Positions 11,313 through 31,921 of a stretch of 39,280 nt of DNA are shown piece after piece. Source of the stretch: an uncultured Bacilli bacterium (GTDB taxonomy: Bacteria > Bacillota_I > Bacilli_A > RF39 > UBA660); contig CANQMM010000008.1 of assembly GCA_947624955.1 (NCBI GenBank), positions 1 to 39,280 of the forward strand, in the 5' to 3' direction. Numbering within the stretch: position 1 is the stretch's first letter; every line of letters begins with the position of its first letter. The notes under the pieces were generated by a model, which was given only the letters and a program-made list of their open reading frames with translations, was not told where the DNA came from and did no database searches. The position numbers and the translations under genes are program-made.

Positions 11313-12653
11313 TTAACATAAATCATTTCTAAAAGCAAGATTTAATTTATGTTTGGAGCCTTCACTACTATCCAGTTCCCCACTAGCGGATTTCCTTAAC
11401 CGATTACCTAAGTCATCTCTTATTTCCCGAAGTCTAGTAACTTCACTAACATAACTAACAATTTGTTTGGTTTCACTTTGAACATTTACTTGTAATAAAA
11501 ACTCTAAATAACCAATAAGACTACTAGTTTGCATATGCCGACTAATTAAAAAATTCACTTTACCTACAAGGGTAATCCACCTTTCATAATCGAGTGAGTT
11601 AGTAGTATTTTCTACTTCCGCTATAGCTTCCTCGATTTCCATCTTAGAAGTTATAATTTTCACAACTACCCGACCAAATCTTCTGACATCCTCGTATTGA
11701 CTTTTTTGAGTTATGTCCAAAGCTTCATCTAATCTATCTAAAGCAATTAGGATATAAACTCGTTGCATCATTATCGTCATATTATTTTGCCATCCCGGCA
11801 TTTCACATAATGCAAAAGCTTCTTCGTATCTTTCTAGTTGTTTTAAGACTGCTACCCTAAGTTCAATAAAAGCTGGCTTATAAGATAAGTTAGGCTGCTC
11901 ACAAATATCTAGCGCTTCCTCTAATCTCCCAAGTTCTTTTAATAAACCAACGCGCTGTACCAAAACATTAGTATTGTCGGCATAAGGACCGTTTTCACAC
12001 AAATCTAAAGCTTCTTCAAATTTGTCTGCATCCCTTAACCGAGCAATCTCTTTAATAACATCATCGACACTAATCGCCTTTGACTTATGATCTTGCACTG
12101 GGGCATTACAATGAATGCCAACATCCCTTCCATAAAATGCCTTATACTGATCACTTAAAATTGCTGCGTCTTCATATCTTTCCATCGCTTTTAATACACT
12201 AATCCTTTGCGCCATAACACTTTTATTATTGGCATAAGGACTTTTTTCACACAATTCTAAAGCATCTTCTAAACTTTGATTAGCTAAACATTTTACATAT
12301 TTTTGAAATTGCGCTTGCCCTCCTAAAAATGTCTTATCACCGACTACTACTTTACCCGCCTCATTTTGGTTTCTAACTTTACCCATAATTAGATTCTTAA
12401 AAAAACCAATATCAAAGAATTTACTATTTTGCTTACTTCTTTCTATTAATCTCTTCTTTACCCGTAGCATTTCTTCATTTTCTGACCAAAAAGCTTGATT
12501 TAATAATCGCTTTAACTCATAACTCATTTTATTAACTTCGTAATAAGCATATAACAAGATGGCTTTCGTTTTACTATCTAAATCCATCCTAGTTATTTCT
12601 TCTAATGTAATATCTCTATCTTTTATTCTTCCTAATATCAATTGATAATTCAT
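11313..12653 (-). CDS. TPR-like repeat protein, paralogue 3 of tandem triplet (6 repeats)
   Basis: The 446-residue product shares with its two neighbours an N-terminal domain (residues 1-90, MNYQ-LILGRIKDRDITLEEI) and a C-terminal helical domain ending in LRKSASGELDSSEGSKH. Between them are six units of a helix-turn-helix repeat with the core EEALDLCExxxxxxNxxVxxQRVxxLKxLxRx, starting at about residues 129, 161, 213, 245, 277 and 309; the usual spacing is 32 residues, broken by an insert after the second. This is TPR/SEL1-like and suggests protein-protein binding. No signal peptide or membrane segment, so it is cytoplasmic. AGGAGGGGGA precedes the ATG. Confidence 0.8.
   Translation of the reverse strand: MNYQLILGRIKDRDITLEEITRMDLDSKTKAILLYAYYEVNKMSYELKRLLNQAFWSENEEMLRVKKRLIERSKQNSKFFDIGFFKNLIMGKVRNQNEAGKVVVGDKTFLGGQAQFQKYVKCLANQSLEDALELCEKSPYANNKSVMAQRISVLKAMERYEDAAILSDQYKAFYGRDVGIHCNAPVQDHKSKAISVDDVIKEIARLRDADKFEEALDLCENGPYADNTNVLVQRVGLLKELGRLEEALDICEQPNLSYKPAFIELRVAVLKQLERYEEAFALCEMPGWQNNMTIMMQRVYILIALDRLDEALDITQKSQYEDVRRFGRVVVKIITSKMEIEEAIAEVENTTNSLDYERWITLVGKVNFLISRHMQTSSLIGYLEFLLQVNVQSETKQIVSYVSEVTRLREIRDDLGNRLRKSASGELDSSEGSKHKLNLAFRNDLC
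11680..12300 (-). repeat. 96-bp (32-codon) in-frame repeat tract
   Basis: Coding repeats of the paralogue at 11313-12653. Homologous tracts with fewer units lie in the two upstream paralogues. The units are diverged at DNA level, so the period is clear mainly in the protein. Confidence 0.7.
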
Positions 12654-12666
12654 AAATCCCCCTCCT
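12521..12666 (-). repeat. near-identical 146-bp 5' segment, copy A
   Basis: This stretch, covering the ribosome binding site and first 44 codons, aligns without gaps to 13437-13582 with three mismatches seen by eye. A more diverged copy covers about 14440-14595. Confidence 0.9.
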
Positions 12667-12675
12667 CATTAAATC

Positions 12676-13569
12676 TTAAGATTCCCTCTTTAATGTATGT
12701 TGGGCAACTTCGCCACTATCTGGCTCCTCTCCAGCGGATTTCCTTAACCGATTAACGAAATTATCCCTTAAATCGCGAATGCGTAAAACATTATTAATAT
12801 ATTCACGATGACAGTAGCGCGAACCCCTAACATTTACTTGTAATAAAAAGTCTAAATACTCGACTATACTCCTAGTTGCTCCTTGCTGATCAATTAGAAG
12901 CCTCACCTTACATACCAATGAATACCAATTATTATAATCGATAAAATTATTAAAATTTTTTACTTCAGTTATAGAACTATCTATATCCATCTTAATTCGT
13001 CTAATTTTTGCTACCAAATTTTTTAAACTCTTACTTCCCCTAAACCGATATTGTTGGATTAGTGCTAAGGCCTCATCCAATCTATCTAACGCGATTAAGG
13101 TTTTAACGTGCTGGATTATAACTTGCTCATCGTCACAAAATTCTGTCATTTCACATAATGTCAAAGCTTCATTTAATTTACCATCATTCATTAACTGAAC
13201 AATCTGTTCAATTAGGTCATTATAAGCATTTGTCTCAGAAGTAGCCATTTCCTGATTATTTTGCATTAAACTACTAGTACTATTAACTGTTCTACTTCCA
13301 ATAATTAAATTCATAAAATATCCGACTTCAAATAATTTATTATTTTGTTTGCTTCTTTTTGCTAATTTATTTTTTAGGTCAAACATCTCTTCATCGTCTG
13401 TCCAAAATTCTTGACTCAATAATAGCTTGATATTATAACTCATTTTATTACCTTCGTAATAAGCATATAACAAGATGGCTTTCGTTTTACTATCTAAATC
13501 CATCCTAGTTATTTCTTCTAATGTAATATCTCTATCTTTTATTCTTCCTAATATTGATTGATAATTCAT
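12676..13569 (-). CDS. TPR-like repeat protein, paralogue 2 (2 repeats)
   Basis: The 297-residue product has the same N-terminal domain as its neighbours, a linker rich in Ser, Asn and Gln (about 95-115), only two 32-residue repeat units (starting near residues 133 and 165, NEALTLCE and DEALALIQ) and the shared C-terminal domain ending LRKSAGEEPDSGE. It is the shortest of the three. A 22-base gap separates it from the next paralogue, so they are co-transcribed. Confidence 0.8.
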   Translation of the reverse strand: MNYQSILGRIKDRDITLEEITRMDLDSKTKAILLYAYYEGNKMSYNIKLLLSQEFWTDDEEMFDLKNKLAKRSKQNNKLFEVGYFMNLIIGSRTVNSTSSLMQNNQEMATSETNAYNDLIEQIVQLMNDGKLNEALTLCEMTEFCDDEQVIIQHVKTLIALDRLDEALALIQQYRFRGSKSLKNLVAKIRRIKMDIDSSITEVKNFNNFIDYNNWYSLVCKVRLLIDQQGATRSIVEYLDFLLQVNVRGSRYCHREYINNVLRIRDLRDNFVNRLRKSAGEEPDSGEVAQHTLKRES

Positions 13570-13582
13570 AAATCCCCCTCCT
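13437..13582 (-). repeat. near-identical 146-bp 5' segment, copy B
   Basis: Partner of 12521-12666 (three mismatches by eye). Points to recent duplication or gene conversion at the 5' ends, while the repeat tracts differ. Confidence 0.9.
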
Positions 13583-13634
13583 AATTAAGTTTGTTATAAG
13601 TATAATAAACTTCTATATACCTAAGCAAAAATTT

Positions 13635-14582
13635 CTAATAAGATTCAATATTTAAACTATGCTTTGAACCTTCATCGCCATCCGGCACTTCACTAGCGAG
13701 CTGTCTTAAATTTTTAGACAAGTTATCTCTTAGTCTACGAATATGGGCAATATCCCTTAAATAATTATTAAACTCTTCTCCAGTAGTTTGCACATTTACT
13801 TGTAATAAAAAGTCTAAATAACCCCCGATACAGTTAGTTACAGCACGCTGATTTATTAAAAATTCCACTTTCTCAATCAGCAAAACCCAACTATCATAAG
13901 TGATAGCATTACCTGTATCTTCTACATCAGCTATAACTCTATCAATATCTATCTTAATCCATTTAATTTTTGCAATTAAGCCGCTTAAAATTTTGACATT
14001 TTTGCTCCGATTTTTTTTCACTAATTTTAAAGCTTCATCTAATCTACCTAATGCTATTAAGACATATATACGTTGAATAAATATAGCTAAATTATCCTGA
14101 AATGGTCCATTTTCGCAAAGTTCTAAGGCTTCTTCAAATCTCTCTAACTGTTTTAAAATGGCTATTCTTTGTTTAATAATGGTTAAATTTGCAGCTAATC
14201 TAGGTTGTTCACATAAATTTAAAGCTTCCTCTAATTCTCCTGTTGCTCTTAATAAACTAATTCTTTGTAGCGAACCTTCAACACTATTAACGGTACTATT
14301 TTTAGCACTCCCCACAATTAAATTATTAAAATAGCCAATGTCAAAAAATTTACTATTTTGTTTATTTCTTTCCACCAAGCGTTTCTTTAACCAAAGCATC
14401 TCTCCATCTTCTGTCCAAAATTCTTGGTTCAATAGTTGTTTGATGTTATAACCCATTTTATTAACTTCATAATAGGCATATAACAATATGGCCTTTGTTT
14501 TACTATCTAAATCCATCCTAGTTATTTCTTCGAGATTAATATCCCTATCTTTTATTTTTCCAAGTATTAATTGATAATTCAT
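13635..14582 (-). CDS. TPR-like repeat protein, paralogue 1 (3 repeats)
   Basis: The 315-residue product is the first gene of the triplet in transcription order. It has the shared N-terminal domain (RMDLDSKTKAILLYAYYE), three 32-residue units starting near residues 118, 150 and 182 (EEALNLCE, EEALELCE, DEALKLVK) and the shared C-terminal domain. Its 5' end is more diverged from the other two copies. A good promoter precedes it. Role unknown; the fold suggests a binding scaffold. Confidence 0.8.
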   Translation of the reverse strand: MNYQLILGKIKDRDINLEEITRMDLDSKTKAILLYAYYEVNKMGYNIKQLLNQEFWTEDGEMLWLKKRLVERNKQNSKFFDIGYFNNLIVGSAKNSTVNSVEGSLQRISLLRATGELEEALNLCEQPRLAANLTIIKQRIAILKQLERFEEALELCENGPFQDNLAIFIQRIYVLIALGRLDEALKLVKKNRSKNVKILSGLIAKIKWIKIDIDRVIADVEDTGNAITYDSWVLLIEKVEFLINQRAVTNCIGGYLDFLLQVNVQTTGEEFNNYLRDIAHIRRLRDNLSKNLRQLASEVPDGDEGSKHSLNIESY

Positions 14583-23875: not shown

Positions 23876-24697
23876 TTATTGTTTTGCCATAACTGGTGGA
23901 TTTTTCGCTAAGAAAGCTAATTTAAGACTTAAAGTTTCCATTTCTTGGGCATATTCACTAGCTTTTTCATAACTAATTTCTCCATTTTGAATATCTTTTA
24001 AGACATCTTTTCTCAGCAAATTAATAAGTATATCTAACGTTTTATGTCTATCAGCATAATTCACTAAACTTACAACAGATCCCGTAAAATTTAGACTATC
24101 ATAAGATAAAACTTGTCTTTTTACCTTGCGTTTTCCTACGTTTTTTATAAACTTAGGATCATAAATACTTTCTTGAATTTCCCCATCATAATAAGCATAA
24201 ACTTTAACTGTCTTATAATACTTTTTTTGTAAAGCATACCGTACTACCAGACTAATAAAATATTTTGCTACTGAATCATTTTTATCAAAGATTATTTCCG
24301 GTCCATTGCATAAACATTTAGGAGCAGTAGTTGAATGTGACTTAGTATATTGTTTTAAACAAACTGAGCATTTAGTTTGTGCCTCATCATTGCATTTTCC
24401 TATATAAATTTGCGAAATCCATTCATTAAATGGATCATTACTAGCAATCGTAGAAAAACTCTCACAACATTGTCTAAAATAATCAAAGACAACATCAACT
24501 TTTTCCAATATTTCTTCGGCCTTTTCTAAAGGCACCGTTTCAGGATGACGCTCTACGTTTATAGAACTTGGAGCTTCATAAACCCGTTCCTCTTGCCCAT
24601 TATTAGTTGCTACCTTAACTCTTTCGCATTCATCTAAAGATATTTCAATATTACTCCCAATAATTTCTATTTCTTTATCATCATACTTAACCTTCAT
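23876..24697 (-). CDS. unrecognised Cys-containing family, paralogue 3
   Basis: The 273-residue product is not recognised. It shares with the two upstream genes a strand-rich N-terminus (MKVKYDDKEIEII), then FDYFRQCCESF (about 70-80), ISQIYIGKC, KCSVCLKQY, CNGPEIIFD (about 131-139), AKYFISLVVRYALQKKYYKT and a basic stretch before VLSYDS, followed by helices. Cysteines in the shared positions (CC pair, later single Cys) are kept. It has more Cys than its paralogues (KCSVC, KCLC), which could bind metal. No signal peptide or membrane segment. No terminator is seen before the str promoter. Confidence 0.65.
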   Translation of the reverse strand: MKVKYDDKEIEIIGSNIEISLDECERVKVATNNGQEERVYEAPSSINVERHPETVPLEKAEEILEKVDVVFDYFRQCCESFSTIASNDPFNEWISQIYIGKCNDEAQTKCSVCLKQYTKSHSTTAPKCLCNGPEIIFDKNDSVAKYFISLVVRYALQKKYYKTVKVYAYYDGEIQESIYDPKFIKNVGKRKVKRQVLSYDSLNFTGSVVSLVNYADRHKTLDILINLLRKDVLKDIQNGEISYEKASEYAQEMETLSLKLAFLAKNPPVMAKQ

Positions 24698-24744
24698 AAA
24701 AATCCCCCATTTATTAAAGAATTATTTATTATAATTTTAATTAC

Positions 24745-25542
24745 TTAATTTTGTGGTTTATCAAAATGTAATTGTAATTTTGCTACTGCTGCTTCCATAT
24801 TCACCGCACATTTATCAGCTTGTAGATAAGACATCGTCCCATTTTGAATTGCTCTAAAAGCTTGGGTTTCCATATATTGCATATAAATATCACTAGCTTT
24901 CCCCTTAATTTGTGAATGTAGCGTACTTAATATATCATAAACATAGCAACCATTCTCATAAGCTAAAACTTTCGATTTAGGCATTACTGAACTCATACTT
25001 CTTGTAAATTTACCATCAAAGAGCTCTTCTCTTTCCTTACAATAATAACTAAATACACTGCTAGTTTCATAATATTTTTTTCGCATCGCATAAAGTCCTA
25101 CTAAACTAAGGAAATATCTACTTATAGCAGTTTCCCTATCGAAAATTATTTCTGGACCTTCACATACCACCTTACTTTTCTTAGGTTCTATATATTCCTT
25201 AAGATTTACCGAGCATTTAACCACTCCGCCCTCTTTACAAGTACCCATATATATTTGTATAAATTGTTTCTTATCGTTTCCTATTCTTTTTTCAAATACT
25301 TCACAACACCGTTTAAAATACTCAAAAGCTTCTTGAACCTTTTTCAAAATATCGTGAGCATCATTTACAGAAACAGATCCCCATTTCTGGTCAACCTTTA
25401 AGGTATTTAATTTTTGCACATCATTATAGACAAATACCCCCGGACGTCCAGCTATCTCTGGATTTTCAGGTGATGTAATATTTGCACCCTCACCAACATC
25501 TAAAACAATTTCTACCAAATTGCCATTATATTTTATATTCAT
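24745..25542 (-). CDS. unrecognised Cys-containing family, paralogue 2
   Basis: The 265-residue product is a diverged copy of its neighbours: MNIKYNGNLVEIVLDVGEG at the start, FEYFKRCCEVFE, IQIYMGTC, KCSVNLKEY, VVCEGPEIIFDRETAISRYF, YAMRKKYYET and SKVLAYENG. Predicted soluble and intracellular. AGGAGG lies 9 bases before the ATG, with 16 bases to the upstream paralogue, so they are co-transcribed. Function unknown. Confidence 0.65.
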   Translation of the reverse strand: MNIKYNGNLVEIVLDVGEGANITSPENPEIAGRPGVFVYNDVQKLNTLKVDQKWGSVSVNDAHDILKKVQEAFEYFKRCCEVFEKRIGNDKKQFIQIYMGTCKEGGVVKCSVNLKEYIEPKKSKVVCEGPEIIFDRETAISRYFLSLVGLYAMRKKYYETSSVFSYYCKEREELFDGKFTRSMSSVMPKSKVLAYENGCYVYDILSTLHSQIKGKASDIYMQYMETQAFRAIQNGTMSYLQADKCAVNMEAAVAKLQLHFDKPQN

Positions 25543-25558
25543 TCTTCATTTCCTCCTC

Positions 25559-26377
25559 TTATTTTTGCGTAGAAGCATTTAGTAGTAAAGCTAATTTTGG
25601 TATTAACTCCTGTACTTTTTTTGCACAACTATCCATCGTTAAATCTTTATTGGCATAGCCATCAAAACTCATTGTATGAATAGCACCCTCTCTTATTCCC
25701 GTTATAATTGATTCATCATAGCCACCTTTAATTGCTCGAGATAGCAAATCAAATAATTCAGATAACATACCACTTGAACTTTCATAAACTAATACTTTTC
25801 TTTCGGCTCTTCGACGACCCAATCTTTCTAAAAATTTATCATCAAATATTTTTAAAGTATTTTGCGGCTCAGCATTTTCATAAAAATCGTCAGTTTTAAA
25901 ATAACCTTTTTTAAGAGCAAACCGGATAATTAGAGCAATAAAATATCTTGTTACTACATCATTATTGGGCAAAATTATTTCTGGTCCTTCACAAAGATGA
26001 GTAGTAGTTATACCCTTTGGTCCCGTTTTCTGATAATCATATTTTTCTAATCTAATCTGACAAACAATATTTTTAAAATCAGCTTGTCTAAATAAATTTA
26101 TTTGTAAGGTACGTCCCGGATTTTCACCTCGTTTACCCAAGGCCTGTTCAAATGCTTCACAACATTTTTTAAAATATTCAAACGCTCCATCTACTTGACT
26201 CAAAGCTTGCTCTGCTTTCATTTGTTTCCAATCAACATCGCTAAAAGCTTGCAAATTATTTAAATTATTGCAAACAATCATTTCACTCTTAGACCCATCT
26301 TCCTTGCCGACTGTTAAAGTTTCTCCTTCATCTAATTCAATTTTAGCAATTACTTCACCATTATATTTAATTTTCAT
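25559..26377 (-). CDS. unrecognised Cys-containing family, paralogue 1
   Basis: The 272-residue product is the first of the triplet. Shared blocks are MKIKYNGEVIAKIELDEGE, FEYFKKCCEAFE, LQINLF, CQIRLEKY, LCEGPEIILPNNDVVTRYF, RFALKKGYFKT and RKVLVYESS. The invariant core across all three is F-x-YF-xx-CCExF, then GPEII, then a (R/K)YF-x(4)-L helix. Cytoplasmic by absence of export signals. AGGAGGAAAG precedes the ATG, 11 bases after the pilin-like gene. Function unknown. Confidence 0.65.
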   Translation of the reverse strand: MKIKYNGEVIAKIELDEGETLTVGKEDGSKSEMIVCNNLNNLQAFSDVDWKQMKAEQALSQVDGAFEYFKKCCEAFEQALGKRGENPGRTLQINLFRQADFKNIVCQIRLEKYDYQKTGPKGITTTHLCEGPEIILPNNDVVTRYFIALIIRFALKKGYFKTDDFYENAEPQNTLKIFDDKFLERLGRRRAERKVLVYESSSGMLSELFDLLSRAIKGGYDESIITGIREGAIHTMSFDGYANKDLTMDSCAKKVQELIPKLALLLNASTQK

Positions 26378-29065: not shown

Positions 29066-29659
29066 CTAATTTTCTTCTTCAGTTTCTTCTTTATTTTCAC
29101 CGATTACTTCTACTTCAGTAGCTGTTGCACTCTTAGCTTCTTCTTCCATCTTAGCAAGTTCAGCATCACGTTTAGCTGCTTCAGCTTCTTCTTTTTCAGC
29201 TTCTTTTTGTTGTTCAGCTAACTCTGCATCGTTAACACCTTTAACTGCAACACCCATATTTCTCGCTGTACCTTCAATGATATTCATTGCGGCTTCAACA
29301 TCATAAGCGTTTAAGTCAGGTAACTTAGTTTCTGCTATACTTCTAAGTTCTTCTTTCGTAATCGTTGCTACTAATTCATTAGCACCTTTTTTGCTACCTT
29401 TTTGAATTTTTGCTGCTTTCTTAATTAAGAATGCTGCAGGTGGCGTCTTTAATACGAAATCAAAACTTCTATCTTCATATAAAGAAATTTCGACTGGTAC
29501 AACGTCTCCCATCTTATCTTTAGTAGCATCATTAAATCTTGTACAAAAATCTTGTAAATTAATTCCGGCAGGACCTAAAACAGTACCAACTGGTGGTGCT
29601 GGAGTAGCTTTACCAGCAGGAATTTGTAATTTAATTTTCTTTACGACTTCTTTTGCCAC
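29066..29659 (-). CDS. rplK: 50S ribosomal protein L11 with acidic C-terminal extension
   Basis: Residues 1-141 are normal L11 ([50 protein letters not shown]). A further 56 residues follow, rich in Glu, Ala and Lys and probably forming a charged helix ([21 protein letters not shown] as one part), with an acidic end. L11 is normally about 141 residues. The start is GTG giving (M)[11 protein letters not shown], with AGGAGG upstream; the longer frame begins at a GTG next to that site. Confidence 0.97.
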
Positions 29660-29690
29660 GAAAAACACCTCCTATAAATAGTTTAACGGG

Positions 29691-29723
29691 TAGTGGTTTG
29701 GGCATCCGCTTTCCCCTCCACTA
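29691..29723 (-). promoter_or_regulatory. putative L1-binding leader of rplK-rplA
   Basis: TAGTGG and CCACTA on the minus strand form a 6-bp outer stem enclosing GAGGGGAAAGCGGATGCCC, with a possible inner GGG/CCC pairing and a GGATG bulge. Its position before rplK and its shape recall L1 operator mimics of the 23S site. Not verified by covariation. Confidence 0.5.
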
Positions 29724-29760
29724 ACACTAATTATATAAAAAATATATAATTGCAACCAAA

Positions 29761-29789
29761 ATAATATCACAGATTACTTTATTAATCAA
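29761..29789 (-). promoter_or_regulatory. promoter of rplK-rplA
   Basis: TTGATT (29784-29789), 17-base spacer ending in TGA, TATTAT (29761-29766) on the minus strand. The -35 includes the TGA stop of the upstream accessory gene. Confidence 0.75.
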
Positions 29790-30424
29790 GCATTTTCCTC
29801 ATTCTTATATTTCTTATAATCATCCCATTGTTTTTTCATTTGCAACTTTATTTCGCCATATATATCTCTTTTATCCGAGGCAACCTTTTCCCCACCTAAA
29901 ACCCAACTAACTTGGACATAGCGTTCATCAAGAAAAGTCAAATCTCCTCCCATAGATACTAATACTCCACAAGTTCCCATATAAAGAACCACACATTCAT
30001 TATATTCATTAATCCCATAAATATCATGAAAAGGAGGATTTTCAATATGACCTTCCTCACCATAAAATTCCGCTTCTCTAATAAAATCTTCTAATAAGAC
30101 ATAATCATCGATTAACTTTTCTAAAGATACCTTAATCATTTCCCTTAATTCCGGCCGACTGATATTTACTAAATAAAATTCCCCATTCCTAATTCGTAGT
30201 TCATAGATATTATCACTATTTTCATAATCTAATCCTTTATATAATCCCGAATTATTATAACTTTCTGCTATTTCTTTATATACTTGAAAGATATCTTTTT
30301 CCATCCCATCGAGGTCCGTAAGAAAATCTTCGAACTCTTGCTCTAAAGCCGTTCTTTTTTCTTCATTCGGCGGATAAAACTTTTTCCTAAAATATATTTG
30401 TCCATTAAATGCTATATGTTCCAT
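29786..30424 (-). CDS. unknown acidic protein, last gene of accessory operon
   Basis: The 212-residue product is not recognised. It starts MEHIAFNGQIYFRKKFYPP, has a helical, acidic middle (about 20-130) and a strand-rich end (CVVLYMGTCGVLVSMGG, YVQVSWVLGGE), finishing in a basic helix. No signal peptide or membrane helix. Its ATG lies inside the last codons of the HNH-like gene (20-base overlap), with GAAGG upstream, so the two are coupled. It may act with that protein; this rests on position only. Confidence 0.65.
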   Translation of the reverse strand: MEHIAFNGQIYFRKKFYPPNEEKRTALEQEFEDFLTDLDGMEKDIFQVYKEIAESYNNSGLYKGLDYENSDNIYELRIRNGEFYLVNISRPELREMIKVSLEKLIDDYVLLEDFIREAEFYGEEGHIENPPFHDIYGINEYNECVVLYMGTCGVLVSMGGDLTFLDERYVQVSWVLGGEKVASDKRDIYGEIKLQMKKQWDDYKKYKNEENA

Positions 30425-30797
30425 TATTTACCTTCTTTAATCTTACCATTTCCCGGTAAGCGCCATATCTAAAGTCTAAAGTTCTTTTCTTTAAACTCGC
30501 TATCCATTCTTGCATTTCTTCCGTTGGGGGTTTATTAGAAGCATTAATTATCCCAAATAGTAAGTTCCACTCCTCATATAATTCCGGTTTATATACCTCT
30601 AATAAATTTAAAAGCTTATGTCCCTTCTTCGTAACTAATGCCCCATTTTCTTTGGTCAATGGTCCACCATTTCTTCTTCTCGTAATATGATGATAAGTCA
30701 AAATATTCCCATTAGTAATTGGAAAGCCCATCCAATCAACTTCAACCGTATTATAAATACTTATCATTTGTTCAATTAATATTCTACTACCTGTCAT
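30405..30797 (-). CDS. HNH-like nuclease-fold protein
   Basis: The 130-residue product has an HNH-type motif: YHHITRRRNGG (H36-H37), then ENGALV (N51) and KKGHKLLN (H60). Spacing H-x(13)-N-x(8)-H fits a beta-beta-alpha metal site, and NGAL with a following His is common in HNH proteins. The rest is helical and basic. No Cys, so there is no structural zinc site of the CxxC type. It could be a nuclease or a domain-only relative. GGGGG precedes the ATG, 23 bases after the transglutaminase-like gene. Confidence 0.65.
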   Translation of the reverse strand: MTGSRILIEQMISIYNTVEVDWMGFPITNGNILTYHHITRRRNGGPLTKENGALVTKKGHKLLNLLEVYKPELYEEWNLLFGIINASNKPPTEEMQEWIASLKKRTLDFRYGAYREMVRLKKVNNGTYSI

Positions 30798-30820
30798 AAA
30801 CTACCCCCATAATTAACTAT

Positions 30821-31858
30821 TTAAGATGCCATTTTTATTGATGGCTCTTCCGGATACTCAAAATCTACTCCTAAGCTTCTTAAATAATCTATTTCTTCGG
30901 CAATCCTATCGCGATCATAATCTATATTACTGATATCATAACTCTCATAAGTATTAGCATAATCCCTAGCAATTGTCCTACTTCTTCCAACTAGAAAGTA
31001 TCTCTTTTCCCAACACCGGTTTTTCAAAAAATAATCATAATTAGTATAACTTCGTGTAATACTGCGAGAGTTATCCATATAATAACCCTTACCAGCAATT
31101 TTTACATAATTCCAAGCATGTTCCAAATTCCCTGCTCTTCTTACATCTACTTTCAATATTGGATTATTTAGTAGTAAAACACTAGCACTAGCTATGGCTA
31201 CACATAAACCATATCCTTTTAATAACACACTTTCCACATATCCTAATTGCTGTAATTCCTCTTCACCTAGTTCATTACTAAAAATTCTACCATCTACTGT
31301 CTTAGTGACATTTCCATCAACATATTGTGTATATCTTTGCAAATAATTACTAACTATTAGAGTTTTTTCTAAATCACTTAAATTAGGTATTGTCGCAATT
31401 AAACTGCTAACTCTTTGGGATTCCACTAATGCCGCCTGACTTACCTTTTCACCTTCATTAGCATACCTAGCTCCTAAAATAGCACTACCGCTTTGAAATA
31501 CTGAACCATATACCCAAAAATCTTTCTTACTAGGAATATTCCACATTACATAATTAAAGGGTAAAAATAATCTAATATGTTGATATTTATCATAATCGAT
31601 ATAAGACCGATCTCTATTTAAGCCATCATCTAATAAGTAACCTTCGATATTTAATCCTAAACTATCTAAATAATCGATAACTTCGATATCTTCCGTACTA
31701 ATTTCCTTAGGTATTAAACCACTTTTAATTAACTCATTAAAATCATTAATAAATTCTACTAAAGTTGCATAATCCTTAATATATAAACGTTCAGGTATAA
31801 TTCTATTTTTATTAAAAGCATATTCTAAAATACTACAATCTTTTTTGACTTTTTCCAT
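30821..31858 (-). CDS. transglutaminase-like cysteine protease-fold protein
   Basis: The 345-residue product has a transglutaminase-like core near its C-terminus: KGYGLCVAIASASVLLL (C219), GNLEHAWNYVKIAGKGYYMDNS (split: H247 in LEHAWNYV and D262 in YYMDNS). This Cys-His-Asp order is that of the superfamily that includes transglutaminases and related peptidases. The N-terminal 150 residues are helical and unrecognised. No signal peptide is seen, so it appears intracellular, unusual for the group. The ATG giving MEKVKKDCS follows GAGGTGG; a GTG in that site starts the longer frame. Confidence 0.75.
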   Translation of the reverse strand: MEKVKKDCSILEYAFNKNRIIPERLYIKDYATLVEFINDFNELIKSGLIPKEISTEDIEVIDYLDSLGLNIEGYLLDDGLNRDRSYIDYDKYQHIRLFLPFNYVMWNIPSKKDFWVYGSVFQSGSAILGARYANEGEKVSQAALVESQRVSSLIATIPNLSDLEKTLIVSNYLQRYTQYVDGNVTKTVDGRIFSNELGEEELQQLGYVESVLLKGYGLCVAIASASVLLLNNPILKVDVRRAGNLEHAWNYVKIAGKGYYMDNSRSITRSYTNYDYFLKNRCWEKRYFLVGRSRTIARDYANTYESYDISNIDYDRDRIAEEIDYLRSLGVDFEYPEEPSIKMAS

Positions 31859-31879: not shown

Positions 31880-31888
31880 ATTTTACCA
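31880..31888 (-). promoter_or_regulatory. extended -10 promoter of the accessory operon
   Basis: TGG-TAAAAT on the minus strand (-10 at 31880-31885), directly after the nusG terminator T run. Confidence 0.55.
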
Positions 31889-31895
31889 TATTTAC

Positions 31896-31921
31896 TAAAA
31901 AAAGAAAGATTTCTCTTTCTA
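31896..31921 (-). terminator. terminator overlapping the nusG stop codon
   Basis: AGAAAGA-GAAA-TCTTTCT followed by a T run on the minus strand. The stem begins in the TAG stop. Confidence 0.93.

Follow-up and report, generated by a model that had tools for sequence, protein, structure and literature searches.

The three genes that lie between nusG and rplK in the window, the 39,280-nucleotide stretch analyzed here (contig C8; the draft genome measures 1.17 Mb), are probably best explained by a permissive junction that took up a phage-type HNH endonuclease gene with a coupled partner gene, X3, and then a gene encoding a transglutaminase-like protein (TG), without forming a three-gene machine. 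In the proposed course of events, the junction between secE-nusG and rplK-rplA would tolerate insertions in this bacterial family; the ancestor of the genus would have acquired a small free-standing HNH gene, from a family shared with phages, along with the overlapping X3; and TG would have come later, only in the window species, separating HNH from its promoter. The original reading of these genes from sequence was a sound observation, and what it describes is mostly ordinary: common parts at a permissive junction.

The gene order on the minus strand is secE, nusG, TG, HNH, X3, rplK, rplA, the L10 leader, rplJ, and rplL, with secE-nusG flanking the three-gene stretch on one side and rplK-rplA on the other. 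Names of housekeeping genes, in the window and in its relatives, were read from their own sequences except where a search is cited. The layout given in the sequence-only reading, with three open reading frames from nusG to rplK and a 20-base overlap between the last two, was confirmed, all three being on the minus strand (Table 1). A GTG codon 9 bases before the ATG of TG is a possible alternative start. Comparisons within the genus drew on three genomes, each from a different species: the window genome (G000), G012 (uncultured Bacilli bacterium CALVJF01), and G422.

Table 1. Features between nusG and rplK, in window positions; G012 and G422 are the two other sampled species of the genus
Feature	Position	Strand	Details
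Stop codon of nusG and a U-tailed hairpin resembling an intrinsic terminator	31894-31921	minus	hairpin kept in G012 and G422
Extended -10 of the promoter before TG	31880-31888	minus	sequence TGGTAAAAT; compared with G012 and G422
TG, transglutaminase-like	30821-31858	minus	345 aa; ATG at 31858 behind AGGTGG
HNH, small HNH endonuclease-type protein	30405-30797	minus	130 aa; pI 9.5
X3, function unassigned	29786-30424	minus	212 aa; acidic, pI 4.6
rplK promoter, TTGATT-N17-TATTAT	29761-29789	minus	-35 shares bases with the TGA stop codon of X3

The A+U-rich hairpin 3' of nusG (-7.5 kcal/mol, z -1.8) leads into a U tract. A generic terminator scan, which demands three G-C pairs, missed it. The sister species carry at the same place foldable hairpins with a U tail and another sequence (z -5.4 in G012 and -2.9 in G422), and because these hairpins differ yet remain foldable, the comparison supports the terminator that had been proposed behind nusG. 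Counterparts of the extended -10 before TG are TGTTAAAAT in G012 and GGTTAGAAT in G422, both of which directly precede HNH; no promoter was evident between TG and HNH. The rplK promoter scored 9 of 12 in the scan, has TGTGA ahead of its -10, and is conserved in all three species. Promoter-like matches over the whole region numbered 15, not above the 17.1 expected from shuffled sequence, so that the case for both promoters rests on conservation in the two sister species and not on score, and on that ground both predictions hold. The further claim that the rplK promoter is built over the last stop codon is correct for the window and G012, but in G422 the -35 lies 18 nt behind the X3 stop. An Rfam scan found no RNA element within the three-gene stretch itself. 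The leader and promoter of rplK (29650 to 29760, minus strand) are strongly conserved across the three species, match no Rfam family, and have a folding energy that is not unusual (z 0.4).

Each of the three species sampled from the genus carries HNH-X3 between nusG and rplK. Among 28 genomes outside the genus, rplK lies within 138 to 364 bases of nusG in 18; the remaining 10, mostly from near genera whose nusG is most like that of the window, have other genes or no rplK behind nusG. These include an AAA+-like gene (L187), a membrane protein with an ABC-type ATPase (L189), and, in L190, a kinase-like gene followed by rplK (Pfam E of 2e-6, below the cut-off). These 10 genomes indicate that the junction admits insertion or rearrangement, and the locus shows that foreign genes can enter where essential transcription units meet even when the genome is a reduced one. 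Three tandem paralogues of about 270 aa (23876 to 26377, minus strand; functions unassigned), located between the rplL side and rpsL, are another lineage-specific insertion among translation genes.

TG belongs to the transglutaminase-like superfamily by its Cys-His-Asp residues, which occur in the core order, and by a matching fold. C219, H247, and D262 are invariant in the alignment of five full-length relatives. Two of the relatives, from G018 and G304, score above the Pfam threshold for PF04473 (DUF553, transglutaminase-like), whereas the window protein reaches no curated threshold. The core of its low-confidence model (pLDDT 57 overall) matched Streptococcus pyogenes TglA (9crn) with a Foldseek E of 2.5e-4, along with further proteins of transglutaminase fold; only this core match was used because of the low model confidence. 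9crn was also matched at an E of 5e-4. TG thus shares its catalytic core with PF04473, TglA, and 3isr in sequence and fold, but it differs from them by an N-terminal half of its own, in which the motif DD....DR..I....Y..W is conserved. No signal peptide is evident, and TG would be a cytosolic cysteine-type amide-bond enzyme acting on its own.

The TG subfamily was found in 5 of the 193 genomes of the family, including that of the window, and each neighborhood is different. The other full-length relatives (G018, G082, G102, and G304) have neither HNH nor X3 alongside; their neighbors are a DUF2441 protein in G018 and mostly uncharacterized proteins elsewhere. In G018 the relative lies directly behind the DUF2441 protein (L062:4964-6678; Pfam E of 2e-22). 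A class-wide genome sample contained no further full-length relative. A phage origin of TG was considered and rejected, as a viral scan using the TG alignment returned no relative. At the nusG-rplK site TG is present in the window species only, directly behind the promoter that in the sister species serves HNH, where HNH-X3 occurs alone. The HNH tree places the window and G422 as sisters with G012 outside (support of 100/93 and 98/95), and, with TG confined to G000, a single gain in the window lineage is the simplest history. Two losses within the genus are possible but less simple.

The second gene encodes a member of the HNH endonuclease superfamily with a conserved His-Asn-His core. H36, H37, N51, and H60 are invariant in an alignment of 21 relatives. 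The last His is replaced by Asn in G422 and by Gln in one further relative; other HNH-type enzymes tolerate a change of the last His to Asn. The sequence-only reading had named an intact Cys-His-Asp set in TG and an HNH motif in the second gene, and the conservation of these residues among relatives, with these few exceptions at the last His, agrees with that description. PF01844 was matched by 16 of the 21 aligned proteins (best E of 4.4e-8), the window protein scoring 16 bits, under the Pfam cut-off of 21.4 bits. In a profile search against solved structures, the family matched the HNH region of IscB type (3.9e-6) and McrA (1.7e-4). The window protein is like these domains in its profile-matched H-N-H core but, unlike IscB and McrA, has no further nuclease or modified-base domain. 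It starts at the HNH region, and neither a delivery or secretion domain, another domain, nor a hydrophobic leader was found. A secreted polymorphic toxin-immunity pair was accordingly rejected, as the 130-aa protein has no delivery part.

The HNH family is patchily distributed, being present in 41 of the 193 family genomes; in the class-wide sample, 10 genomes had a match, only one of them outside the family. Close relatives occur in different genera at different sites, and among the 46 HNH genes analyzed no neighbor is shared beyond small groups. HNH is found as a lone gene beside rlmN, tpiA, glyS, nusA-ylxR, tsf-rpsB, rpsO, and rplU, and in two loci it directly precedes genes for the small and large terminase subunits (PHROG E of 1e-17 to 4e-69). 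One of these terminase-adjacent loci, L057, belongs to the HNH subclade of the window. Relatives were also found on nine IMG/VR viral contigs, all in a subclade other than that of the window, whose own pattern gave no viral match, and tblastn against named phages with the window and L170 HNH proteins as queries found no relative. In L055, L166, and L056, from different genera, HNH genes of two subclades lie directly upstream of rlmN, which may be one insertion site that was reused.

T4-like phages are known to carry free-standing HNH endonuclease genes between their conserved genes (PMC2988022). As a lone endonuclease gene of sporadic distribution between conserved genes, the HNH gene resembles these phage enzymes in anatomy and distribution, and membership among homing endonucleases is not claimed for it. 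The likeness to the T4 mob genes and to phage HNH genes beside terminase lies in a small lone intergenic gene next to conserved genes, in relatives on viral contigs, and in adjoining terminase genes. In contrast to them, the window HNH gene belongs to a bacterial chromosome, occupies a single site in three species, and is coupled to X3, and its product of about 130 aa has no identified DNA-binding domain. Bacterial chromosomes, like phage genomes, thus host phage-type HNH genes next to conserved housekeeping genes.

X3 is almost confined to the genus of the window, with weak relatives elsewhere. Its orthologues in G012 and G422 are 43 to 46% identical and stand beside HNH; among the 46 HNH genes analyzed, X3 is a neighbor only in this genus, and some X3 relatives have no HNH gene beside them. 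A search of named genomes gave CALVJF01 as the sole match, and the family searches gave no family match. The X3 model (pLDDT 77) has two small barrel-like parts, for which the fold search returned no significant match (best Foldseek E of 0.022, with a poor superposition). An SH3/Tudor-like fold was rejected, as the best Z of 6.5 over 54 residues is below the informative level. Similarity of X3 to the C terminus of a J-domain protein (L086:49-1710; E of 9.8e-4, in one genome) is too weak for a shared domain, and later X3 profiles included that sequence and are hence no test of the resemblance.

The HNH and X3 reading frames overlap by 20 bases in the window and by 4 and 23 bases in the other two species, and translation of the two is probably coupled because of this overlap. 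In all three species HNH is basic (pI of 9.2 to 9.7) and X3 is acidic (pI of 4.5 to 4.6). Both appear to evolve fast yet under constraint, with dN/dS values of about 0.15 to 0.73 versus 0.02 to 0.12 for nusG and rplK; these values are rough because dS is near saturation. An acidic X3 with a basic HNH protein is compatible with a nuclease and its binding partner, although it proves nothing.

The sequence-only reading had compared the three genes to a toxin, defense, or processing module, and that they form one functional module, for example in defense or processing, is now very improbable. A single promoter with none evident between TG and HNH, small gaps, and a common strand would fit such a module, but G012 and G422 lack TG at the site, its four other full-length relatives are not near HNH or X3, and the three sets of homologues do not occur together as a set. 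Of the two refuting conditions attached to the sequence-only reading, lack of co-occurrence of the homologues therefore applies, whereas loss of the catalytic residues among homologues does not. No match to a defense family was found either: PADLOC returned nothing for TG, HNH, or X3 up to an E of 10, on which ground a known anti-phage defense system was ruled out, and none of the three proteins matched a known toxin or immunity family, in keeping with the earlier remark that no partner or immunity gene can be named. What survives of the module is a two-gene unit, HNH-X3, maintained in one genus. The locus illustrates that a common promoter need not mean a functional module.

For the two-gene unit, the favored account of a phage-type gene taken up at a permissive junction holds that HNH remains able to cut or nick DNA, acting most likely as a domesticated phage endonuclease or a free-standing, homing-type one, and that X3 would bind or temper it. 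Against this account, HNH-X3 has remained in place while three species diverged, a pattern that fits a gene of use to the cell better than it fits an active selfish element. It is rather unlikely that the pair is instead a nuclease with its inhibitor or immunity protein, a toxin-antitoxin-like or addiction system in which binding by X3 averts DNA damage. The order of enzyme and then partner, the overlapping frames, the opposite charges in three species, and the fast evolution of both genes would suit such a system, as would the basic character (pI of 9.1 to 9.2) of two X3 relatives in genus g35 that are not beside HNH. However, most HNH relatives are solitary with no fixed neighbor, and the protein is therefore tolerated without an antitoxin; X3 relatives occur without an adjoining HNH gene; and acidic proteins are common here, with a pI of 4.6 or less in 7 of the 44 open reading frames of the window. 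The pair thus recalls HNH/ENDO VII toxin-immunity pairs in that the nuclease gene overlaps a downstream gene whose product is acidic, but it differs from them in lacking a delivery domain and an immunity-family match and in having mostly partnerless relatives.

Domestication as a cellular DNA-processing enzyme for repair or recombination, with X3 as an accessory that binds DNA or protein and guides the enzyme, is quite unlikely. It draws on the maintenance of HNH-X3 at a single site under constraint in three species and on the weak, subinformative resemblance of the X3 barrels to SH3/Tudor-type folds, but the patchiness of HNH argues against a core function, and the fold matches of X3 are not significant. 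That HNH-X3 is a new nuclease-partner pair, kept in one genus, in which the acidic two-barrel X3 controls or targets a phage-derived HNH protein, is in our estimation unlikely. The pair offers a simple, testable candidate for a nuclease that has a partner of its own, the point of interest being whether X3, which is acidic, holds the basic HNH protein in check or guides it.

Elsewhere in the window, three tandem repeat-containing paralogues that start with MNYQ.ILG.IKDRDI, with function unassigned, lie at 11313 to 14582 on the minus strand.
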